A DNA stretch of 64,000 bases from Sphingobacteriia bacterium (GCA_015999745.1 JAECQP010000002.1:1-64000); one strand, 5' to 3'. Positions 50,881 to 63,949 are shown, counted from the stretch's first letter. Program-made: numbers and translations. The notes: generated from the letters alone by a model not told the origin.

Positions 50881-51750
50881 ATGAAGCCGATTGTTGTAAT
50901 AACAGGAAAGAACGGACAGCTTGGTTGGGAATTACAACAATTGGCTTCCTCTTTTGAAAGCAGGTACCAGTTTGTTTTTGCAGACAGGGCCATGCTGGAT
51001 CTGTCTCAACCCGAAACCATAGCTCCATTCATTGAGCAATACCATCCGCAATATGTACTGAACTGTGCAGCCTATACCGCAGTGGATAAAGCAGAATCAG
51101 AGCAGTTGGAAGCCATGACCATCAATGGTATTTCCGTAGGAGAGCTGGCAACTGCCTGCGAAAAACATCATTGCAAACTGATTACTGTTTCCACCGATTA
51201 TGTGTTTAATGGAAATGGCACATCCCCTTACCAGCCCGATACACCCACCGATCCGGTGAATTATTACGGATATTCAAAATGTATTGGGGAGCAGTTGGCA
51301 CAGCAGAATAACCCATCTTCCATCATTGTAAGAACATCCTGGGTATATAGCGTACATGGTCATAACTTTGTGAAGACCATGTTGCGGTTAATGAAGGAAA
51401 GGCCCGAATTAAAAGTAGTCAGCGATCAGGTAGGATCACCCACTTATGCAGCAGACCTGGCTGCAGCGTTGATGCAGATTGTGGAAGAAGATCAGCAAGG
51501 AAATCATCATTCGGGAATCTATCATTACAGCAATACGGGGGTAATATCCTGGTACGATTTTGCTGTGGCCATCCGGGATCAGGCAAAGCTTTCTGCCAAT
51601 GTGTTGCCCATACCAGGCAGTGCGTATCCTACGCCGGCATTCAGGCCTGCGTATTCGGTGATGGATACTTCTAAGATTGCCGCAGACTTTGGGATTGAGC
51701 TAAAGCCCTGGGAGCAGAGCCTGGCGCAATGTTTGAAACAGCTCTTATAA
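50881..51750 (+). CDS. rfbD: dTDP-4-dehydrorhamnose reductase
   Basis: A 289-residue SDR: TGKNGQLGWELQQL at the N-terminus, NCAAYTAVDKAE, STDYVFNG, and YYGYSKCIGEQL with catalytic Tyr/Lys. NADPH-dependent last step of dTDP-L-rhamnose synthesis. The other rml genes (A, B, C) are missing from this window, so they must lie elsewhere or the enzyme serves another 4-keto sugar. It ends the operon; the next gene starts 20 bases after its stop. Confidence 0.92.
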   Translation: MKPIVVITGKNGQLGWELQQLASSFESRYQFVFADRAMLDLSQPETIAPFIEQYHPQYVLNCAAYTAVDKAESEQLEAMTINGISVGELATACEKHHCKLITVSTDYVFNGNGTSPYQPDTPTDPVNYYGYSKCIGEQLAQQNNPSSIIVRTSWVYSVHGHNFVKTMLRLMKERPELKVVSDQVGSPTYAADLAAALMQIVEEDQQGNHHSGIYHYSNTGVISWYDFAVAIRDQAKLSANVLPIPGSAYPTPAFRPAYSVMDTSKIAADFGIELKPWEQSLAQCLKQLL

Positions 51751-51770
51751 AAGTGATTAAATTGTTTCTT

Positions 51771-52367
51771 ATGAAAAACGCTTTAGTAGTAACCCTAACG
51801 TTGGTTGCAGCAGTAGTTGTAATGATTGCCTGTAATCAATCCGGATCCGAAGAAGCCGCCCTGCTGGAATCCTACCGGCTAAAAGGAGATTCCATCAGCA
51901 CCACGGCACAACAAACCATCTTCAGGAGCCTTACCAGGGCGGTGGATACCGGCGGACTGGTGTATGCTGTAGACTTCTGTAGCAATAATGCAATGCGTAT
52001 TACCGATTCATTGTCTCAGTTAGCGGGATCAACCATTCAGCGACTGAGCAATCGAAACCGGAACCCGGCTAACCGGCTTGCAGAAGAGGGCGACCGGGTG
52101 ATTTGGGAACATTTTAACAGCCATACCGATGGAAACGTTGATGATACATTGATTCATACCAACGATAGTTACACCTATTACAAGCCCATCCGGATAGCCA
52201 TGCCGGCCTGCCTGAATTGCCACGGTAAAAAAGACAAAGACCTTGATCCGCTGGTTGCTGAAGTGATTGCCGGGAAATATCCCAATGACCTTGCAACCGG
52301 TTACCAGATGAATGACCTGCGCGGAATCTGGAAAATCACTTTCCGAAAGTCACCACCTGCAAAATAA
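51771..52367 (+). CDS. DUF3365-type haem c lipoprotein
   Basis: A 198-residue lipoprotein starting at ATG 51771 with lipobox VVMIAC21. It carries one haem c motif, C147-L-N-C150-H151, near the C-terminus. The body matches DUF3365 (Tll0287-like) proteins: helical N-terminal part, then YKPIRIAMPACLNCHG and KYPNDLATGYQMNDLRGIW. Such proteins are periplasmic redox sensors or electron carriers. Haem attachment would need the Ccm system found at 40-45 kb. Its 3' end overlaps the convergent gene by 32 bases. Confidence 0.9.
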   Translation: MKNALVVTLTLVAAVVVMIACNQSGSEEAALLESYRLKGDSISTTAQQTIFRSLTRAVDTGGLVYAVDFCSNNAMRITDSLSQLAGSTIQRLSNRNRNPANRLAEEGDRVIWEHFNSHTDGNVDDTLIHTNDSYTYYKPIRIAMPACLNCHGKKDKDLDPLVAEVIAGKYPNDLATGYQMNDLRGIWKITFRKSPPAK

Positions 52368-53440: not shown

Positions 53441-54055
53441 GTGATCGACTATACTACATATGATGATACGGCGCTGATGCGCGTGATTGCCCTGGAAGAG
53501 GCGGATAGCCAGGCATTTACCATCTTCTATAACCGGCATTTGGCAAGGGTTTACAAGAAAATGCTGGTGTTCCTGAAAAGTTCGGATGAAGCAGAGGAAG
53601 CGGTACAGGAAGTATTTATACGGATCTGGAAAAGAAAGGAATTCTTACATGAGGTACATAATATAGAGGCATATTTCAATACAGTCTGCCGCAACCTGGT
53701 ATACGACCGGTTCCGCAAAGCCAGGAACGATAAACACCTTCTCGAAAAACTAAAAGCAGCGGCAAGTGAACATCCGGAACAGGCGCCCGGTGCAGATGCA
53801 CAGCTACTGGTGAAACAACAATGGGAACTCCTGCAGAGGGCCCTGGATACATTGCCCCCGCAAAGACGTAAAGTATTTGAACTATGTAAAGTGCAGGGTT
53901 TGTCCTATGACGAAGTATGTGCCGAACTTGGTATCACCCTGCCCACAGCCAAAGAACATGTGATGAGGGCAAAGCGCGATATCCGTGATTACCTCAATGG
54001 GCAGGGAGAGCTGGCAGTAAGCCTGCTGATCCTGCTGGATATGATCCACGAATAG
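53441..54055 (+). CDS. ECF sigma-70 family RNA polymerase sigma factor
   Basis: A 204-residue ECF sigma factor. Region 2: ADSQAFTIFYNRHLARVYKKMLVFLKSSDEAEEAVQEVFIRIWK; region 4: LDTLPPQRRKVFELCKVQGLSYDEVCAELGITLPTAKEHVMRAKRDI. The start is GTG, since no in-frame ATG exists before the domain. It is followed 95 bases later by a FecR anti-sigma gene and then susC, the normal cell-surface signalling order in Bacteroidota. A short hydrophobic C-terminal tail (AVSLLILLDMI) is extra. It is expected to activate the fecR-susC-susD run. Confidence 0.94.
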   Translation: MIDYTTYDDTALMRVIALEEADSQAFTIFYNRHLARVYKKMLVFLKSSDEAEEAVQEVFIRIWKRKEFLHEVHNIEAYFNTVCRNLVYDRFRKARNDKHLLEKLKAAASEHPEQAPGADAQLLVKQQWELLQRALDTLPPQRRKVFELCKVQGLSYDEVCAELGITLPTAKEHVMRAKRDIRDYLNGQGELAVSLLILLDMIHE

Positions 54056-54100
54056 GGAAAAGCCGGGATCCGGGAAAAATAATTAGCAAAAAGTTCATAT

Positions 54101-54140
54101 TGGGACCCTACGCTTTTTCCTTAGCCGAGTCTTAGTTAAA
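54101..54140 (+). promoter_or_regulatory. candidate ECF-dependent promoter upstream of fecR
   Basis: TGGGACCCTACGCTTTTTCC followed by TTAGCCGAGTCTTAGTTAAA resembles the T-tract plus GTCTTA sequences seen before Bacteroidota fecR genes (recollection, not measured). It ends about 10 bases before the FecR start. Confidence 0.35.
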
Positions 54141-54150
54141 AACACCCCTT

Positions 54151-55350
54151 TTGGAACCCCGCTACACACCTGAAGAGTTTACTGTACTGCTGCAACGCTA
54201 TATCGAAAATCGTTACAGCAGGGAAGATGTGGACCTGCTTACCCAACTGATCGATGAGCCGGCCTATCATGGGCTAGCCATGGAGCTGATTGAGGGAACG
54301 CTGCACAAAATAAAGGTGGAGGAGGGAGAAATTGCACCTGATGTACTGGAACGCCTGCGCAATAAACTTCCCGGGATCCTTGGTGAAGAACAAGCTGCCC
54401 AAACATCAGCCCGGCCAAGTGTTTCGGTGTTGCGCCGGATGCGCTGGGCTGCAGCGGCGGCTATCCTTTTGGTTGCGGGCACGGCAGCTTATTTCTTGCT
54501 GCAGCCCAAACAGCCTGCCGGTAGTACAGCACAACCCATTGCGGATGTGAAGGCCCCGGAGAAGAACCGGGCCATGATTACCCTTGAAAATGGAAAAACC
54601 ATTTACCTGGATAGTGTGGGCAACGGACAACTGGCTGCGATGGGAGCAGTGAAATTGGTGAAACTGGCCAATGGCCAGATCCGTTATTCCGGAAAGGCAT
54701 CAGACATTGCTTATCATACGCTCACAAATCCACGCGGCAGCCAGCCGATCGATATGACGTTAAGCGATGGAAGCAGGGTATGGCTAAACGCAGGTTCTTC
54801 TATTACTTATCCCATTGCTTTTGTAGCAGGACAACACAGAAAAGTAAACATGACCGGCGAAGCCTATTTTGAAGTGGCGCATGATGCGGCCAATCCTTTT
54901 TATGTATCACGCGGAGGAATGGAAGTTAAAGTACTGGGTACCCATTTTAACGTGAACGCCTACGATAATGAAGGCGCCTATAAAGTGACGCTGCTGGAGG
55001 GCGTTGTAGCAGTGAAGAAAGCAACAGGTCAACTACTGTTGAAACCAGGACAGCAGGCGCAGGTAAATCAAACTGTTACATTGGAAACCGCGGTTGATCT
55101 GGAACAGGTAATGGCCTGGAAAAACGGCGCCACTTATTTCACCAATGCAGACCTGGGTGTGGTACTGCGGGAACTGGAACGATGGTACGATATCAAAGCA
55201 GAAGTGAAGGGAACATTGGGTAGTAAGCGTTTTTACCTGGATGCACCCAGGAGCGCTTCCCTGCAGGATGTGTTGAAGTCGATACTGGAAGACAATCAAC
55301 TGCGCTATGCGTATGATGCAAACAACAGAACACTAACGGTTCATCCGTAA
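54151..55350 (+). CDS. FecR-family anti-sigma transmembrane regulator
   Basis: A 399-residue protein with N-terminal cytoplasmic region (YTPEEFTVLLQRYIENRYSREDVDLLTQL), one TM helix near residues 96-116, the FecR domain (LSDGSRVWLNAGSSITYP, GEAYFEVAHDAANPFYV, VLGTHFNVNAY) and the C-terminal DUF4974 domain (VVLRELERWYDIKAEV ... LRYAYDANNRTLTVHP). Starts at TTG; the next Met is at residue 39 inside the first helix bundle, so TTG is preferred. It relays the SusC STN signal to the ECF sigma. Confidence 0.92.
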   Translation: MEPRYTPEEFTVLLQRYIENRYSREDVDLLTQLIDEPAYHGLAMELIEGTLHKIKVEEGEIAPDVLERLRNKLPGILGEEQAAQTSARPSVSVLRRMRWAAAAAILLVAGTAAYFLLQPKQPAGSTAQPIADVKAPEKNRAMITLENGKTIYLDSVGNGQLAAMGAVKLVKLANGQIRYSGKASDIAYHTLTNPRGSQPIDMTLSDGSRVWLNAGSSITYPIAFVAGQHRKVNMTGEAYFEVAHDAANPFYVSRGGMEVKVLGTHFNVNAYDNEGAYKVTLLEGVVAVKKATGQLLLKPGQQAQVNQTVTLETAVDLEQVMAWKNGATYFTNADLGVVLRELERWYDIKAEVKGTLGSKRFYLDAPRSASLQDVLKSILEDNQLRYAYDANNRTLTVHP

Positions 55351-55357
55351 AATAGAT

Positions 55358-55410
55358 TGCTCAAAAAAAACCGCAAGTGGTCGCACCCACTTACGGCGAT
55401 GATTTGAGCA
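55358..55410 (+). other. nested stem-loop between fecR and susC
   Basis: Outer arms TGCTCAAA (55358-55365) and TTTGAGCA (55403-55410) enclose an inner hairpin CCGCAAGTGG (55371-55380) and CCACTTACGG (55387-55396) with loop TCGCAC; the inner stem has one mismatch. It starts seven bases after the fecR stop and ends 66 bases before susC. No U-tract follows, so it is not a standard terminator. An mRNA processing or attenuation element is inferred. Confidence 0.5.
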
Positions 55411-55475
55411 GGCAACCAATATCTAAGAAGGAATCATCATTGCTTAACCGCCTGTGAAGAACGGGCTCAAACCAC

Positions 55476-58400
55476 ATGCAAAGTATGCATTCAACTGCTT
55501 TTGGCCATCAAATTAATTTTGGGCCATTCACCCAAATGCTGCGCATCATGAAAATGTCAGCTTTATTAGTCCTGCTTGTATTGCAGGCTGCCGCCCACCC
55601 CAATGCTATCGCCCAGGTAACCCTGAAGGAGAAGGCTGCTCCATTGGAGAAGGTACTGAAGGCGATTAAGAAACAATCTGCCTATGGACTGGTTTTTGAT
55701 GAAACCCTGGTACGGGCCAAGGGAAGGCCCGTGTCCATAGAGGTATCTGACCGGCCGGTGGAAGAAGTGCTGGCACAGATATTCAGAGGTCAGGACCAGC
55801 TTACCTATACGCTCAATGGAAGAATCATCAGCGTTAAAGAGAGGTCCGTGGGAAAGTTGCCCGCGGCAACAAAGGCCGCGGAAGCCAATGAACCTCCGCA
55901 GCCAATTACAGTGAGGGGTAGGGTGGTGAATGAAAAGGGGGAGGCTGCTGTTGGGGTTGCTGTAATGATTAAAGGAACAACCAGAGGAACCAGCACGAAT
56001 GAGCGCGGAGAATTTTCGCTGAGCGGGGTGCCGGAGAATGCAATGCTTGTGTTCAGTAGTGTGAACCTGGAGCGATTTGAAATGAAAGTGACTGCAGATA
56101 AAGCAGCGGACCTATCGATCACGCTTAAAGCCAAGATCAGTGAACTGGCAGATATTACCATATCCTCTGTAAATACAGGCTATCAGACCATTTCAAAGGA
56201 ACGTGTCAATGGAAGTTATTATGCTATGGATAGCACTGCATTCAACCGCCGTGTAAGCACTGATGTGATATCCCGTTTAGAGGGTATGGTTCCGGGATTG
56301 CTGTTCAATCGGAATGTTTCCGGAACGGGCCTGAATCTGAGTATCAGGGGACATAGTACCATTCTTGCCAATGATCAGCCATTGATTGTTGTAGACAATT
56401 TCCCATACGATGGAAGTATTGATAATATCAACCCGAATGATGTTGAGAGCATTACGGTACTCAAAGATGCATCTGCGGCATCTATCTGGGGTGCAAAATC
56501 CGGCAATGGAGTGATCGTAATCACTACCAAGAAGGGCAGGCGTTACCAACCACTGATCATGGAATTAAACAGCAATGTTACTATTGGAAGCAAGCCTGAT
56601 CTTTTTTATAGCCCTAAATTTATTGCGTCGAGCGATTTTATTAATGTTGAGAAAACCCTTTTTGGCATGGGGTATTATGATGCAAACCTGGCGAATTCGG
56701 GTAAACCTGCGGTTTCCCCAGTTGTTAAAATACTTGCCAGGCAACGTGCGGGGCAGATTACCACTGATCAGGCGAATCAGCAAATTGATGCACTTCGCCA
56801 AAATGACATTAGAAATGATCTAAACAAGTATTTATTACAAAAATCAGTTAGTCAGCGATACTCGCTTAATATCAGAGGTGGTGGTCTGTCAAGTGATTAT
56901 TTCCTTTCTTTTGGCTTTGATAATAATCGAAGCAGTAATGTCGCCAATTCTAACAAACGTGTAACAATCACAGGAATCAGTAATTTTTATCCCACAAAGA
57001 ATCTTACGCTTTCTGCTGCTGTATATTATGTGCAGTCAAATAACCTTGCAAATGATGTGAGTATAAATAGTATCAACCCACTTAACAGGCCAGTTACCTA
57101 TCCCTATGCTCAATTAGTGGATGCCGGTGGCAGGCCAGTAAATATTGACAAGGATTTCAGTTCCTTTTATACAGATACCGTTGGTACGGGAAAGTTGATG
57201 AGTTGGAGGTATTCTCCATTGGAGGAAATAGCGCAGAACTATGATAAAACCAATTTAATTGATAATCGTATTAATCTGGCAGTTAGGTACAATTTCCTAA
57301 ATGGATTCGGTGTTGAAGGAAAATTCCAATACCAAAAAAGTTCCAGTAGCAATAAGGATTATTCCGGAGATTCCAGTTATGCCGTAAGGTATTTATACAA
57401 TCGCTATACTAACTTAAGTACCGGCGCACATCCTGTACCAGCAGGTGGAATCTTAGGACTCTCGAATCGGAATCTTGTTTCTTACCGTTCGCGCTTTCAA
57501 TTGAACTATAACCATACTTGGGCAATGCATTCAGTAAACTTACTTGCAGGGGCGGAGATTAACTCTACAACTGCTGAATCTTCAAATAATACCTTATATG
57601 GTTATAACGAAGACCTGGGAACCTTTCAATATATTGATCTTGTTACTGTTTTTCCGACCATTCCAACCGGAAGTAATAGAGTCCCATTTTCCAGCGGAAT
57701 CTCCCAGACAAATGACAGATTCTTGTCTTACTACTCGAACGCTTCTTATTTGATAAATGGTAAATATTCTCTCACAGCCAGCGCGCGAATAGACAAATCC
57801 AACCTTTTTGGTGTGAATACCAATCAGAAGGCGATTCCCCTTTATTCCATTGGGGCAGGGTGGGAATTCAGCAAGGAAAAATGGTTGAACCTTGCCTGGT
57901 TGGATGCAGGTAAACTCCGCGTTACTTATGGCTACAACGGCAATATCAACAAAAGCGTTGCTGCTATCACAACTTTTACTTCATTAGCCAGCTCAACTTT
58001 AAACCGTATTCCTTATGCCACTCTTTCTAATCCTGGCAATCCGGAATTAAGATGGGAGCGAATTTCCATGGTCAACTTCGGGATGGATTTTAGCGTCCTA
58101 AAGAACCGCATTACCGGCAGCATTGAATATTATCGGAAAAAGGGCACGGACTTGTTTGGACAGGCGCCATTGCCAGGATCATCCGGACTGACCAGCCTTA
58201 CAGGTAATTTTGCGAATACCAAAGGATACGGCGTTGATATCTTGATCAGGTCTGTTAACGTGCGATCAAAGAATATTCTTTGGACTACGGATTTTATTTT
58301 TAGCAAGGCAAAGGATGTCGTTACGAAGTATGGAGTTAAAGCAGCGGTGAGCAACTATTTATTGCAGGGAGATAATAATGGTACAGGTGCCAATATTCCC

Positions 58401-59045
58401 CTGGAAGGGAAACCTCTTTTTGCCATTTACAGCTACCCCTTTGCAGGACTTGATAACAATGGAGACCCCCTTGGATATTACAACGGTAAGCCAAGTAATA
58501 ATTGGGCTGGTATTATAGGAAATACTACTACGGATAGTATGCTGTTCCACGGTAGCTCAAGGCCAACAGTATTCGGATCGCTCAGAAATACTATTTCCTA
58601 TAAGGGATTTACATTATCATTCAACCTGCTCTATAAGTTTGGATACTATTTTCGTCGTTCAACTTTGGGTGCAGCCTCGTTATTTGGCAGTTGGATAGGA
58701 CATGAAGATTATTATAGCAGATGGCAAAAACCGGGTGACGAAAATTATACAGATGTTCCTGCCTTACAGTACCCTCCGATAAATAACAACCGTGGAACCT
58801 TCTATTCAAATTCCTCTGCATTGGTTGAAAAGGGAGATCATATCCGGTTGCAGGATATCAATCTGAGTTATCAGTTCAACAATAAGGTTTTAAAGTCAAT
58901 AGGCTTAAATGACCTGCAGGTGTATAGCTATCTAAATAATATTGGACTGGTATGGCGTGCCAACAAAAGTCATCTTGATCCAGACATATACGGCGATTAT
59001 CGAATACCGCTTTCCATCGCATTCGGAATTAAAGCAACCTTTTAA
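55476..59045 (+). CDS. SusC/RagA-family TonB-dependent receptor with STN domain
   Basis: A 1189-residue outer-membrane receptor. After an extended N-terminus with a hydrophobic signal (MKMSALLVLLVLQAAA) come an STN signalling domain (about 55-125), a CarboxypepD_reg-like domain (about 145-222: VRGRVVNEKGEAAVGVAV), the plug (about 240-355, with LIVVDNFPYDGSIDNINPNDVESITVLKDASAASIWG and GVIVITTKKGR) and the beta-barrel ending in aromatic F. The STN domain implies surface signalling through FecR. GC content falls just after the plug, near base 56,560. The ATG at 55476 fits long SusC leaders in this group. Substrate unknown. Confidence 0.93.
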   Translation: MQSMHSTAFGHQINFGPFTQMLRIMKMSALLVLLVLQAAAHPNAIAQVTLKEKAAPLEKVLKAIKKQSAYGLVFDETLVRAKGRPVSIEVSDRPVEEVLAQIFRGQDQLTYTLNGRIISVKERSVGKLPAATKAAEANEPPQPITVRGRVVNEKGEAAVGVAVMIKGTTRGTSTNERGEFSLSGVPENAMLVFSSVNLERFEMKVTADKAADLSITLKAKISELADITISSVNTGYQTISKERVNGSYYAMDSTAFNRRVSTDVISRLEGMVPGLLFNRNVSGTGLNLSIRGHSTILANDQPLIVVDNFPYDGSIDNINPNDVESITVLKDASAASIWGAKSGNGVIVITTKKGRRYQPLIMELNSNVTIGSKPDLFYSPKFIASSDFINVEKTLFGMGYYDANLANSGKPAVSPVVKILARQRAGQITTDQANQQIDALRQNDIRNDLNKYLLQKSVSQRYSLNIRGGGLSSDYFLSFGFDNNRSSNVANSNKRVTITGISNFYPTKNLTLSAAVYYVQSNNLANDVSINSINPLNRPVTYPYAQLVDAGGRPVNIDKDFSSFYTDTVGTGKLMSWRYSPLEEIAQNYDKTNLIDNRINLAVRYNFLNGFGVEGKFQYQKSSSSNKDYSGDSSYAVRYLYNRYTNLSTGAHPVPAGGILGLSNRNLVSYRSRFQLNYNHTWAMHSVNLLAGAEINSTTAESSNNTLYGYNEDLGTFQYIDLVTVFPTIPTGSNRVPFSSGISQTNDRFLSYYSNASYLINGKYSLTASARIDKSNLFGVNTNQKAIPLYSIGAGWEFSKEKWLNLAWLDAGKLRVTYGYNGNINKSVAAITTFTSLASSTLNRIPYATLSNPGNPELRWERISMVNFGMDFSVLKNRITGSIEYYRKKGTDLFGQAPLPGSSGLTSLTGNFANTKGYGVDILIRSVNVRSKNILWTTDFIFSKAKDVVTKYGVKAAVSNYLLQGDNNGTGANIPLEGKPLFAIYSYPFAGLDNNGDPLGYYNGKPSNNWAGIIGNTTTDSMLFHGSSRPTVFGSLRNTISYKGFTLSFNLLYKFGYYFRRSTLGAASLFGSWIGHEDYYSRWQKPGDENYTDVPALQYPPINNNRGTFYSNSSALVEKGDHIRLQDINLSYQFNNKVLKSIGLNDLQVYSYLNNIGLVWRANKSHLDPDIYGDYRIPLSIAFGIKATF

Positions 59046-59056
59046 AAACGGAAATC

Positions 59057-60448
59057 ATGAAAAAATCAGTATATTTTTATTTGCTTCTATTTTCATCTGG
59101 AATGTTAAGTTCTTGTAAAAAAGAAGATGCATTCCTGGATGTAAAACCAAACATATCATTGGTTGTTCCTTCCAATCTGGATGACTATCAGAAGCTTTTA
59201 TACAATGAAGGGGTTTTTAATACAGCCGTTGATCCAGCAATGGGTTCAATTACATCAGAGGAATATTATGTGACACCCGCTTTTTGGGCGGGCCGTCCGA
59301 TTCTTGACCGCAACCTTTATGTTTTTGGTAGTGGTTACGTTTATGAGTCGTGGCCATTGTTTACCGATTGGGAGCTTCCATATAAACAGGTTTATTATGC
59401 CAATATTGTCCTAGACAGGATAGATAAACTTGAAATTACCAATGATTACCAAACTCAATATAAAACCGTAAAAGGGCAGGCTTTATTCTTTCGTGCTCGC
59501 GCATTTTACAACTTAGTTCAAACCTTTGCCATGCCGTTTGATTCCACCAATTTTTCCACTGGGTTGGGCATACCTTTGCGACTAACATCTGATTTTAATG
59601 TTGTTATACAGCGATCTACGATCCAGCAGACTTATGATAGAATTTTGGCGGATCTGACGGCAGCAGTAGAATTTCTTCCCGTTTCAACAGCCTATCCAAC
59701 CCAGCCATCAAGAACGGCTGCCAATGCGCTTCTAGCCAGAATTTATTTGGCTATGCGGAATTATGTGAAGGCGTTGCAATACTCAGATGCTACCTTATCA
59801 TTTAAAAGCGATCTTATAGATTACAATGCACTGAGTCCTACAAATACCAATCTGTCGACCACTTATTTAAAAGAAGATATTTTCCAAGCCTCTTTGTTGT
59901 CAGGTATATTCACATTTAGTGGCTCTACAACGGTAGATACAAATTTATTGAAGCTTTATGATGATCCAAATGATCTTAGACGGACTGTTTGTTACAGAAC
60001 TAATGGGAGTAATGTTGAGTTTAGGGGTACTTATGGATTGGGCACTGGTTCAAAATATAGTGGCCTTGCTACTGATGAAATGTATTTGATTCGTGCAGAA
60101 TGCCTTGCCAGGCAGGGAAATGTGAGTGGGGCTATGACTGATGTAAACACGTTGCTGCGCACCCGATGGAAGAAGAATGGAACTTTTAGTACTTATGTTG
60201 ATAAGACGGCCCCCTCTGCAGCAGTCGCTCTCAATCTTATCCTGAAAGAAAGGAGAAAAGAGCTTCCATTCAGGGGCTTGCGGTGGACAGATATACGAAG
60301 ACTGAACCTTGAGCCAGGCTTTCAAACTACTTTAGCAAGAGTACTAAATGGCGTAACCTATATTTTGCCTCCTGGTGATCCAAGATTTGCAATGCCTATT
60401 CCACTCACTGAAATACAATTGTCAGGTATTCAGCAAAATGATAGATAA
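59057..60448 (+). CDS. SusD/RagB-family surface lipoprotein
   Basis: A 463-residue outer-membrane lipoprotein starting 11 bases after susC. Lipobox region GMLSSCKKEDAF; then the SusD fold: YDRILADLTAAVEFLP, RTAANALLARIYLAMRNYVKALQYSD (TPR-like) and YLIRAECLARQGNVSGAMTDVNTLLRTRW, then ERRKELPFRGLRWTDIRRL. It caps the SusC barrel. It is slightly shorter than many SusD proteins. Low-GC codon use matches the distal susC. Ligand not identified. Confidence 0.9.
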   Translation: MKKSVYFYLLLFSSGMLSSCKKEDAFLDVKPNISLVVPSNLDDYQKLLYNEGVFNTAVDPAMGSITSEEYYVTPAFWAGRPILDRNLYVFGSGYVYESWPLFTDWELPYKQVYYANIVLDRIDKLEITNDYQTQYKTVKGQALFFRARAFYNLVQTFAMPFDSTNFSTGLGIPLRLTSDFNVVIQRSTIQQTYDRILADLTAAVEFLPVSTAYPTQPSRTAANALLARIYLAMRNYVKALQYSDATLSFKSDLIDYNALSPTNTNLSTTYLKEDIFQASLLSGIFTFSGSTTVDTNLLKLYDDPNDLRRTVCYRTNGSNVEFRGTYGLGTGSKYSGLATDEMYLIRAECLARQGNVSGAMTDVNTLLRTRWKKNGTFSTYVDKTAPSAAVALNLILKERRKELPFRGLRWTDIRRLNLEPGFQTTLARVLNGVTYILPPGDPRFAMPIPLTEIQLSGIQQNDR

Positions 60449-60503
60449 GTAAGTGACAGATAATTTTTATTCGCTACTACTAAACGTGATAATTCATAAT
60501 AAG

Positions 60504-62036
60504 ATGAAACAGCGATTACTTTTTTTGCTATTTATATATTCAACAACATACTTTGACTTGTATGCACAGGACCGGCCTTCCTTTAAGTGCCAACCAGTGG
60601 TTGTCAAAGGGCATTTTCAAGATTTGAGATTGGGAGATAGTTTACGAATTGGGGGAGCCATATTAGAATATGGCCTTGGAGCCAGTTCCGCTCAGAGGTA
60701 TTTTAGCGTGGGAAGCGAATCTTTTGTATTTAAATTCGACCCGATAAGAGTGCCATCACAGATTCAAATAAGAGTAGATACAATCAGAAATGGGAAAAAC
60801 ATACCATTAATGATATCTGACGTTTTTTTAATCGAGCCGGGAGACACCATTATACTTTCAAAAAATGGCAGAAAAGTAAGCTATTCAGGTACAGACAGGA
60901 AAATATCGCTCCTTCAGGAAGTTGATAAGATTGGAACAATATTAAAGAAAAAGCGATGGCAAAACGTAGAACAAATTCGACCTGTAGAGAACGATTACAA
61001 TTACCTGGATTCCGTTACTATATTACAATTATTATATCTTGAACAAATTAAGGATCAAATTTCAACTACTGCATATTCTTTATCGAAAATAGATATTCTT
61101 TGCAGTAACTTGTCTTTTAAACGCCACATTGAAAGACGGGTTGTTAACAAGGATAATTATCTAAAACTTCGGAATTTCTACAATGTTCAGGATGCCAATT
61201 TTGGAAAGGCAGAATCTATAAGAAAATCTCTTGCCAATTATTATGATAGGATAGCTGAAGAATTAAAAAGTGCAAGAGCCAAGTATTCCTTTTTTTTTCC
61301 ATACAGTAAAGCCTATTCATCACTCATTAAGCTGAATTACGAGAAAGATTCTTGTATTATACCTGATTCCCCTTTTGACCTTAGGAAGTATTATTGCTAT
61401 CTAAAAAATAATTTTGGTGGCTTGCTTCGTGAACGATTACTTGTTGATTTTGTTTTTAGCAATATCTCCACGATTGATGACCGTGGCTTTTTCATAAGGG
61501 ATGCTATGCCATATATTAAAAATCATGATTTTGTAAATTACTTATTAAAAATAAGCACAGGCGTAAAAGGCGATCCAGCGTATAATTTTACTTTACCCGA
61601 TTTGAGTGGAAACAAAGTAAGTATGGAGTCTTTAAAAGGAAAAGTGGTTGTTATGGATTTTTGGGGAACTGGTTGTGGGCCTTGTATTAAGTTGCACCCG
61701 ATATTTGATAAAGTTGTTGATTATTTTTCTGATAATTCTAATATTATATTTCTAAGTGTAAGTTTAGATGAAGACAGTTTAAAGTGGAGAAATAGCGTTA
61801 TGGGAGGAAAATATACATGCACTTCAAAGCCTAATCTTTTGAATATTTATACAGACGGACTCGGGCATAATCATCCCATGATAAAATATCATAATATACG
61901 AGGCATTCCAGCAATGGTATTAGTGAATAGTATAGGAAACATAGAGGAAAATCCAACCGATCCCTGGTCAGAAGATGGGAAGGGCTTGATAAAGAAAATT
62001 GAGTTACTAATTAAAGCAATACCTGAAGCTGATTAG
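60504..62036 (+). CDS. TlpA-like thiol-disulfide oxidoreductase with unusual N-terminal extension
   Basis: A 510-residue exported protein. I start at ATG 60504 (MKQRLLFLLFIYSTTYF) for its signal peptide; the track GTG start overlaps nothing useful. The C-terminal 140 residues are a thioredoxin-fold TlpA/AhpC-TSA domain: FTLPDLSGNKVSMESLKGKVVVMDFWGT, active site C391-G-P-C394, and cis-Pro region GIPAMVLVN. The first about 360 residues contain a beta-rich DUF4369-like part (VVKGHFQDLRLGD ... GDTIILSKNG) and an unassigned helical region. It follows susD by 56 bases. It could reduce or form disulfides in exported proteins such as the DUF6520-like protein opposite. Confidence 0.85.
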   Translation: MKQRLLFLLFIYSTTYFDLYAQDRPSFKCQPVVVKGHFQDLRLGDSLRIGGAILEYGLGASSAQRYFSVGSESFVFKFDPIRVPSQIQIRVDTIRNGKNIPLMISDVFLIEPGDTIILSKNGRKVSYSGTDRKISLLQEVDKIGTILKKKRWQNVEQIRPVENDYNYLDSVTILQLLYLEQIKDQISTTAYSLSKIDILCSNLSFKRHIERRVVNKDNYLKLRNFYNVQDANFGKAESIRKSLANYYDRIAEELKSARAKYSFFFPYSKAYSSLIKLNYEKDSCIIPDSPFDLRKYYCYLKNNFGGLLRERLLVDFVFSNISTIDDRGFFIRDAMPYIKNHDFVNYLLKISTGVKGDPAYNFTLPDLSGNKVSMESLKGKVVVMDFWGTGCGPCIKLHPIFDKVVDYFSDNSNIIFLSVSLDEDSLKWRNSVMGGKYTCTSKPNLLNIYTDGLGHNHPMIKYHNIRGIPAMVLVNSIGNIEENPTDPWSEDGKGLIKKIELLIKAIPEAD

Positions 62037-62124
62037 AGTTGCAAGACTGCATCGATTGTCAGCTTCCCAACCGGGATGCCTAAAATTGTCGTTTTAAGCG
62101 GGCTTTGTTTTGCAAAGGTCTAAA

Positions 62125-62400
62125 CTAAGGGTAGGCACCCAGTTGCTTTGAGGGTTCAACTACATCCTCGGGGTCCGGTTCATTATTTGGTTCGGGTACG
62201 TCTGCATCATTTTCAATCAGATACGAACAGGGTTGAAGTATGACCGGGTCACAATCGCCAGTAGTAGGTTCTTCTTCAACCCAATGAAATTCTCCATCGC
62301 CATCATCTACACGGAAGATGGATTTTTCAAATTTTGTGTTAAATGCGCTACCGACAGCAAACAACAATGCCAGCAGACACAATAATCTAACCTTTTTCAT
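62125..62400 (-). CDS. small exported DUF6520-like protein with one Cys pair
   Basis: A 91-residue precursor. Signal peptide MKKVRLLCLLALLFAVGSAF, then an acidic mature part with Trp in DGEFHWVEEE and two cysteines C50-x7-C58 (TGDCDPVILQPCSYL). The acidic Pro/Asp tail (PEPNNEPDPEDVVEP) is low in complexity. The MKK...AVGSAFxTK start and single Cys pair followed by an acidic tail match the DUF6520-type small proteins as I recall them. It lies 77 bases downstream of a MauE gene on the same strand. Function unknown. Confidence 0.72.
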   Translation of the reverse strand: MKKVRLLCLLALLFAVGSAFNTKFEKSIFRVDDGDGEFHWVEEEPTTGDCDPVILQPCSYLIENDADVPEPNNEPDPEDVVEPSKQLGAYP

Positions 62401-62477
62401 AAATGAAAATTTTGTTGTTGTTGCCTACTCTTTTTAAAGGTTTTCGGCAATCCCCTTTTTTTATAGCTATAAAGATT

Positions 62478-62918
62478 TTAAGCGATGGAAATTTCCGCTT
62501 TATGGTTTGTTTTGTGTTTTTCGAGCCATAGACCGATCATGCTGATAGCGGTAAAGAAAAGGTTGATATAAAAATGATTTTCCCATGTGAGCTTTTCCAT
62601 TATCCCACCGCAAATACATGGTTTTTTTGCTATGATGTTAAAGGCGAACAATGCAGCATATATCGTAAAAGCCACCATTAATGAAAGAGCTACTTTTAAA
62701 GCAGGACGCCTCGTTCTGTCAAAGAATAGTAATCCTGCAATTAATAGTTCAGCAGCAGGTAAAGTAGAGGCAATAAACCAGCCCATCCAATCGGGGAAAG
62801 GTTGTGTTTTCATTGCATCAAAAAAGACAGGGTAATTGATGAACTTGCTAATACTTACGTAGGCAAATAATAGGATGAGCAAGGCGCAGCAAAGTTCCAG
62901 CCAGATTGACTTTTTCAT
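62478..62918 (-). CDS. MauE/DoxX-type redox-associated membrane protein
   Basis: A 146-residue protein with four predicted TM helices (about 5-24, 46-66, 76-97 and 114-131). The loop after the third carries the paired cysteines C101-I-C103-G-G (KKPCICGGIMEKLTW), the MauE family mark. MauE in methylamine operons supports disulfide formation in the small subunit. Here it precedes the DUF6520-like gene and faces the TlpA-like gene, so a thiol-redox relay is suggested. It is not part of a methylamine cluster. Confidence 0.85.
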   Translation of the reverse strand: MKKSIWLELCCALLILLFAYVSISKFINYPVFFDAMKTQPFPDWMGWFIASTLPAAELLIAGLLFFDRTRRPALKVALSLMVAFTIYAALFAFNIIAKKPCICGGIMEKLTWENHFYINLFFTAISMIGLWLEKHKTNHKAEISIA

Positions 62919-63460: not shown

Positions 63461-63949
63461 ATGGCATTACAAGTATTGGCTGTGAGTAGTGATAACCATG
63501 CTGCGTTATGGCAGCTTGAATGTAGTTTAAAGAAAGATGAAATATTTAGCAGGCGAAGCATAGAGATTATGAGTTTTTGCACACTGCGTAATGCTTTACA
63601 TGTGTTCAATTGTTTGCGCCCAGATGTGCTTTTAATAAATGTAAAATGGCTTGAGTTTTCCCGTGTTGAAAGAGTACAAGAGATCATTGTGCAGCTAACG
63701 GAATTGGAACCGGCAGCTAATATTGTGGTTATGACGCCAAACTACTGTTCACATACCCAACAATACATGCAGTTATCCGGTGTTAAGGGTTACGTATATC
63801 TTGATTCTCCATTCTTTACGGAAAGGGAAGTGTGGGAACATTTTGTTGTTTCACTTGAATATGCGGCAAAGGGGGAGTCTTTTTTTTGTTGCCCGTCCTC
63901 GCAGCAGAAATGGCAATTTCAAAGCTGTTTGGCAGATCGGCCAGCGTAG
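63461..63949 (+). CDS. orphan receiver-like regulator, probably frameshifted near the end
   Basis: A 162-residue ORF resembling a response-regulator receiver domain: LQVLAVSSDNHAAL at the start, LRPDVLLINVKW (the usual phospho-Asp may be the Asp in PDVLLI or is replaced), AANIVVMTPNY, and VKGYVYLDSPF. There is no DNA-binding domain. After a T8 run (63880-63887) the annotated frame gives unlikely QQKWQFQSC..., while the frame shifted by one gives PVLAAEMAISKLFG..., a typical linker-like helix, ending at TAA 63967-63969. It may be a pseudogene, a phase-variable gene or a sequencing error. Confidence 0.6.
   Translation: MALQVLAVSSDNHAALWQLECSLKKDEIFSRRSIEIMSFCTLRNALHVFNCLRPDVLLINVKWLEFSRVERVQEIIVQLTELEPAANIVVMTPNYCSHTQQYMQLSGVKGYVYLDSPFFTEREVWEHFVVSLEYAAKGESFFCCPSSQQKWQFQSCLADRPA

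Follow-up and report, generated by a model that had tools for sequence, protein, structure and literature searches.

A small protein with a cysteine pair, encoded head-on to a SusC–SusD operon, belongs to an exchangeable cassette

Introduction

Few proteins of Bacteroidota are as numerous as SusC–SusD (SusCD) pairs, which are almost always interpreted as food importers. In a Sphingobacteriia bacterium, one such operon runs head-on into the genes for a MauE membrane protein and a small, exported-looking protein with two cysteines, which raises the question of what this small protein does for the pair. The locus lies in what we call the window, the whole stretch of 64,000 nucleotides that was analysed, from contig 36 of a 3.03-Mb genome (98% complete). 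A first-pass annotation had proposed that the small protein is exported, matured through a disulfide by MauE and TlpA and active together with SusCD, possibly as a secreted peptide, a ligand carrier or a signalling molecule that is taken up again. Here we follow up these claims by comparing the locus with its counterparts in related genomes.

Results

Gene content of the locus

The seven genes named in the first-pass annotation are all open, and their order, strands and families were confirmed (Table 1). Both the SusC and the SusD profiles score above cut-off within one operon; 8ypt/8ypu is the closest PDB match for both proteins, and RagA and BT_2264 are also among the matches. The TlpA-like protein carries a thioredoxin-like domain with the CGPC motif, as recognized by several thioredoxin-clan Pfam matches above cut-off, and has ResA structures among its PDB matches. 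Its listed reading frame opens at a GTG (60453), and the probable start is the ATG ahead of the signal-like stretch (60504).

Table 1. Features of the locus, with positions in the window. L148 is the syntenic locus of a Sediminibacterium genome.
Feature	Position	Strand	Matches and remarks
ECF sigma factor, conserved cassette flank	53441..54055	+	Pfam Sigma70_r2/r4_2; Sigma70_r4_2 60 bits; 86% identical in L148
FecR-type anti-sigma factor, conserved flank	54151..55350	+	Pfam FecR 61 bits, FecR_C 46 bits; 87% identical in L148
SusC, whole gene	55476..59045	+	TIGR04056 503 bits (cut-off 368); TIGR04057 55 bits
N-terminal sensor part of SusC, on the conserved side of the break, with signal peptide, STN-like region and carboxypeptidase-regulatory-like extension	55476..56085	+	
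SusC plug and barrel, exchangeable	56086..59045	+	39% identical to L148; other clade than L148
SusD-like surface lipoprotein, exchangeable	59057..60448	+	SusD-like_3 PF14322 117 bits; 40% identical to L148
TlpA-like periplasmic thiol-disulfide protein (CGPC), exchangeable	60504..62036	+	AhpC-TSA 38 bits, Redoxin, Thioredoxin_8; 27% identical to L148
DUF6520-like small exported protein (91 aa), exchangeable	62125..62400	-	PF20130 21.0 bits; 24% identical to L148
MauE membrane protein	62478..62918	-	PF07291 84.9 bits (cut-off 27); CICGG
Receiver-like protein that lacks a DNA-binding domain, divergent from MauE	63461..63949	+	Weak response-regulator matches

The FecR and ECF sigma factor genes are adjacent and lie upstream of SusC, whose N-terminal extension is 80–92% conserved in L148. 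The putative STN domain of SusC scores 16.5 bits with PF07660, under the Pfam cut-off of 28.4, though it is recognizable and conserved.

MauE has the features of its family (PF07291): besides the score above cut-off, it has about four hydrophobic helices and a CxC in a loop. In an alignment of 29 MauE sequences the PCxC motif is invariant, the GG that follows nearly so, and a W-H-N pattern comes after it; the invariant residues are K25, P54, E57, F84, Y87, P100, C101, C103, W112, H115 and N119. The PCxCGG motif sits in the loop that connects the predicted helices TM3 and TM4. Charge is somewhat higher at the ends of the protein and, per length, in the helix 2–3 loop than in the other two loops, a pattern that would fit a periplasmic location of the CxC loop.

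Some MauE proteins come with an additional partner. The MauE of L128–L136 carries a fused domain, about 350 residues long and without a Pfam match above cut-off, which L105, L138 and other loci apparently encode as a gene of its own. A propeller fold is our guess for it, family matches being weak or under cut-off. In the distant phylum members L146 and L147, which lack SusCD, MauE lies near a gene with a weak six-bladed-propeller match, along with thioredoxin-like genes, RND-pump-like genes and small proteins that look exported or are rich in cysteine; the RND-like pump could be an export route there.

The cysteine pair of the small protein is conserved

The small protein of the window has a C50-x7-C58 pair, a predicted mature mass of about 8.0 kDa and a pI of about 4. 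Its gene lies 77 bp from that of MauE and its start is signal-like by pattern. The wording 'DUF6520-like' proved right: PF20130 reaches 21.0 bits over positions 1–67 of 83, under the gathering cut-off of 25.4, and strict Pfam membership was rejected on that score. Proteins at the matching position in relatives pass the cut-off (for instance 32.8 bits in L129). A literature search for DUF6520 found no paper, many subscription journals and all preprints lying outside its coverage.

To judge the cysteine pair, we collected the small genes that follow MauE and have a signal-like start; the pair itself was not a selection criterion. A C-x(4-13)-C follows the signal-like start in 66 of these 67 homologues, with a spacing of 6–7 residues in 54 of them, as compared with 27 of 67 on average, and 36 at most, in shuffled sequences. 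The sole exception is a thioredoxin-like protein. The cysteine pair noted in the first-pass annotation is thus real and beyond chance. The export claim is supported in so far as the counted homologues have a signal-like start, a feature by which they had themselves been picked, by pattern and not by a trained predictor. Across loci the predicted mature proteins have a median mass of about 8 kDa and a pI of about 4.7.

Tandem small genes, two to six in a row, occur in 12 of 75 loci. One locus (L078:1316-10286) has five to six of them beside a single MauE and a single SusCD pair. All ten genomes of one genus keep the whole locus, with roughly 60–75% conservation of the small protein among eight of them; two of the ten small proteins have lost extra cysteines and retained the core pair. 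A link between cysteine loss and MauE loss was considered and rejected, as it rested on a partial single case (L187) and was contradicted by L182. AlphaFold2 models built from two-sequence alignments were uninformative (mean pLDDT 44.8 for the small protein and 53.9 for MauE).

MauE and the small protein accompany one group of SusCD pairs

This type of MauE is present in 78 of 200 genomes of the same family, often in several copies. Sixty regions around such genes mostly have the same layout, with some parts absent or reordered: MauE is followed by a same-strand small gene, head-on to TlpA, SusD, SusC, FecR and sigma factor genes. The convergent SusCD persists in four other families of the class (five families in total), where some loci have MauE fused to the 350-residue domain and an S9 peptidase in place of TlpA in the receiving operon. 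Altogether, a convergent SusC or SusD is found at 85 of 95 MauE loci, several of the remaining ten lying at contig ends, and 39 of the 95 have an AraC-type regulator gene upstream of MauE. TlpA had been counted as part of the module, which holds for 51 of the 85 SusCD-linked loci, one of them also with an S8 peptidase; ten have an S9 peptidase, never together with TlpA, and 24 have neither TlpA nor a recognized peptidase. MauE, too, is sometimes absent beside the small gene.

Since the 95 loci had been chosen via MauE, we also ran the reverse test and ranked 150 SusC proteins from 20 genomes by how closely they resemble that of the window. MauE lies within 8 kb of 51 of the 72 top-ranked SusC genes and of 3 of the next 78, and the linked SusC is convergent with MauE in 50 of 54 cases. 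Fisher's test on this split gives 3e-19, a guide and not an exact probability because the SusC sequences are related. Neighbourhood conservation, on which the first-pass proposal had been made to depend, is therefore very strong (85 of 95 loci, the rank test, five families), and we consider the association of MauE, the small protein and SusCD well supported. One could also suppose that MauE and the small protein work in general oxidative folding and lie next to SusCD by chance. The abundance of SusCD pairs in these genomes and the independence of MauE from the small protein (see below) might lend this some colour, but it has next to no probability left in view of the rank test, the convergent geometry and the joint exchange described below, and we rejected it.

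We then considered 20 loci that had been fetched mainly for a SusC without nearby MauE. About half of them still hold a small exported protein at the same place; one (L182) has a MauE that the search had missed. The small protein thus goes with SusCD no less regularly than MauE does. No recurrent outer-membrane exporter and no recurrent immunity gene were found across the examined loci.

The genome of the window holds a second copy of the module on contig 32 (L127:3351-4180 and upstream), with AraC, MauE and a 105-aa small protein head-on to SusD/SusC.

The block is exchanged between conserved flanks

The same locus occurs in a Sediminibacterium genome of the family Chitinophagaceae (L148, the sole locus that came from a single-protein scan with MauE). 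The flanking gene, the sigma factor, FecR and SusC residues 1–150 are 73–92% identical between the two (80–92% for the SusC residues), with 86–88% overall for the sigma factor, FecR and the SusC sensor part, and on the other side the receiver-like protein is a common flank (38% identical, reciprocal best match). The 83% nucleotide match stops abruptly at 56085, inside SusC and ahead of the plug. Past residue 200, fifty-residue blocks of SusC are 20–48% identical, with the exception of one 78% stretch at the SusC signature; identity is 40% for SusD, 27% for TlpA, 24% for the small protein and 40% for MauE.

This loss of similarity reflects replacement and not mere drift, because the two barrels fall in different clades: in a tree of SusC barrels, that of the window has L070 as its sister (support 99), whereas that of L148 clusters with L073, L074 and L244 (97). 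Within L148, the best matches of the SusC barrel, SusD, TlpA and the small protein all lie in L074 (a weak one, 34 bits, for the small protein), whereas the sigma factor, FecR and SusC sensor match the window best. The small protein, the SusC plug and barrel, SusD and TlpA have thus been replaced together, while the SusC sensor, FecR and the sigma factor stayed. No other close syntenic copy of the sensor region of the window was found among 399 family genomes.

Other pairs of loci behave likewise. L102 and L104 share 10 kb at 97.3% nucleotide identity; the match breaks off 8 bp past MauE, the next 5.5 kb are unalignable, and an identity of 93.5% sets in again inside SusC. A match between the second locus of the window genome and L110 (genome G167, same genus) ends at the AraC stop codon, just before MauE, beyond which protein identity is 37–51%. 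In L098/L115, L131/L133 and L189/L190, conserved flanks surround diverged modules with less sharp edges. Abrupt loss of similarity, conserved flanks and conflicting trees are what characterizes an exchangeable cassette, and the block behaves as one, which the first-pass annotation had not foreseen.

In L102 and L104 the cassette adjoins TraG, TraJ and RteC genes, in related conjugative elements of two different genera, and their 97% identity over 10 kb probably reflects a recent conjugative-element transfer. At the RteC–MauE flank of L102, no further allele was found in 150 relatives. Neighbouring ICE-type genes were seen at 14 of 60 loci of the family and at 9 of 20 other loci, as compared with 3 of 20 loci chosen for lacking MauE. 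Being conjugative-element cargo was rejected as a general account of the module; no ICE-type genes were found in the window.

Joint divergence was assessed over 59 loci, across which the small protein shows a weak but significant correlation with the SusC barrel (r = 0.17) and SusD (r = 0.13; p = 0.0005) and none with MauE (r = -0.005). Where a sensor part is present (17 loci), the correlation of the small protein with FecR is at least as good as that with SusC. Joint exchange and joint divergence support the earlier claim that small protein and SusCD pair work together. By contrast, MauE was rejected as a specificity partner: it does not track the small protein and was left behind in the L102/L104 swap.

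Discussion

A dedicated partner of SusCD

What, then, is the small protein? We tentatively favour, at somewhat short of an even chance, a modular receptor–partner cassette in which the small protein would be a dedicated partner of its SusCD pair, most likely a self-made ligand or ligand precursor, within a loop made of MauE, TlpA and STN–FecR–sigma. Oxidation by MauE, reduction by TlpA and signalling through STN, FecR and the sigma factor are roles known for these families, and the disulfide formation and reduction assumed here fit the families. In the periplasm, MauE would introduce the disulfide into the small protein, which would then exit the cell and be caught by its matching SusD lid on SusC; TlpA, or an S9 or S8 peptidase at other loci, would open or degrade the imported material; and the STN domain of SusC would act through FecR on the sigma factor to turn up the operon. 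This last step would not be general, since many loci have no sigma factor or FecR nearby. Such a system could be a private peptide signal or a scavenger loop, the specificity of which is changed by swapping the block.

The strongest points against a ligand are size and the absence of a recognized exporter. A total limit of about 5 kDa has been proposed for SusCD cavities (PMC7782687). Because the mature protein, at about 8 kDa, exceeds it, intact uptake is unlikely, and the re-uptake of the whole small protein suggested in the first-pass annotation is doubtful. Size would cease to be an obstacle if it were a processed fragment spanning the disulfide loop that is taken up. Two further observations speak against the proposal: the small protein correlates with FecR at least as well as with SusC in the loci with a sensor part, and the stability of the locus in all ten genomes of one genus, with roughly 60–75% conservation of the small protein among eight of them, is unlike a fast arms race.

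The main competitor, which we consider rather unlikely, is that the small protein is a resident periplasmic or surface accessory of SusCD (a plug, gate or chaperone) with a MauE-made disulfide, swapped along because subunits must fit. Joint exchange and divergence with SusC and SusD fit this equally well; moreover, an accessory sidesteps the missing exporter and the size limit, and the small protein does remain where MauE or TlpA is lost. A subunit would hardly be expected, however, to occur next to a single SusCD pair in as many as six tandem copies, to be encoded on the opposite strand, often with an AraC-type regulator of its own, or to show such very low sequence conservation. It is the tandem copies, the separate regulation and the presence of disulfide-opening or peptide-cutting enzymes in the receiving operon that lead us to infer a ligand and not a subunit.

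A more specific form of the ligand proposal, possible and on the whole doubtful, is pherotype-like communication or self-recognition: a secreted allele-specific disulfide mini-protein, or a fragment of it, would be captured by the cognate SusCD and reported through STN, FecR and the sigma factor, the ligand, SusD and the SusC barrel being swapped as a block. In pherotype loci such as agr and comQXPA, signal and receptor genes likewise co-vary within conserved flanks; these systems differ in using histidine kinases, and at the present locus signalling is deduced from family roles. What we observe is that a group of soil and water bacteria repeatedly carry an import gate and a co-diverged mini-protein, with one probable disulfide, as a swappable block, which hints at a private 'key and lock' so far undescribed. 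If this is true, many SusCD gates would serve the recognition of the bacterium's own products. The cassette also offers a first testable handle on DUF6520 and on the presence of MauE and TlpA in SusCD loci.

Other readings and related systems

That the SusCD pair imports an outside nutrient or peptide, its diversity stemming from diet or from phages that use SusC and the small protein being a carrier or redox substrate but not a signal, appears improbable. SusC/SusD shuffling is known in Bacteroides fragilis, where parts vary at a locus through recombination (PMC4747536), glycans and peptides are the best-known SusCD ligands (PMC7782687), and TlpA, S9 and S8 proteins suit peptide use. Nutrient import alone nevertheless does not account for the link between one SusC group and an exported protein with a cysteine pair. 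The B. fragilis shufflons have in common with the present cassette the variation of SusC/SusD at one locus; here, unlike there, whole alleles differ between species, secreted protein included, and we know of no secreted partner in B. fragilis. The peptide importers RagAB and BT2261–64 share the SusC/SusD fold and layout with the window pair. They differ in that they bind outside peptides, and to our knowledge they have no self-encoded secreted partner.

Still less probable is a narrow-range antibacterial protein that enters or blocks cells via SusCD, with self-protection provided by the neighbouring genes and diversification as in toxin–receptor pairs. Diversified alleles, tandem variants and the proximity of some loci to conjugative-element genes would suit it, as would the comparable layout of isopeptidase-type lasso clusters (astexin, sphingopyxin, benenodin), in which a peptide gene accompanies a TonB-dependent transporter and sigma/anti-sigma genes (PMC9266682). 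However, neither an immunity gene nor an exporter recurs, nearly all lasso peptides of isopeptidase clusters are reported to be without antimicrobial activity (PMC9266682), and the locus is vertically conserved throughout one genus.

These lasso clusters are nonetheless the closest in layout, with a small peptide gene of their own, a TonB-dependent transporter, sigma/anti-sigma genes and a prolyl-oligopeptidase-like enzyme. The likeness extends to the S9 enzyme of some other-family loci, the best NCBIfam match of which is the lasso isopeptidase AtxE2; at 108 bits, as compared with a cut-off of 400, it is not a member. A profile search found no lasso cyclase, leader protease or above-cut-off isopeptidase at the present locus, which is thus not a lasso cluster, and which differs further in its Sec-type signal and cysteine pair and in having SusCD in place of a lone receptor.

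The mau cluster encodes MauE, MauD, the disulfide-rich MauA and the propeller protein MauB. It resembles the cassette in combining MauE, a thioredoxin-like protein and a small exported cysteine protein and, in some relatives, in the possibly propeller-like domain fused to or beside MauE. The cassette differs in having its parts split over two convergent operons, and an amine dehydrogenase-like reading was set aside as weak, given two conserved cysteines only and no sign of an amine dehydrogenase.

Neighbouring genes

Just past the window, about 2.4 kb from MauE on the minus strand (contig 36, about 65.3–68.8 kb; L126:5338-8811), lies a bufferin-like operon that encodes an ECF sigma factor, an 89-aa anti-sigma-like protein, an MNIO protein (PF05114, 321 bits), DUF2063 and DoxX; no precursor peptide was identified in this operon. 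On the other side, directly upstream of the locus, the window encodes a Tll0287-like protein (51729-52367; PF11845, 70 bits).
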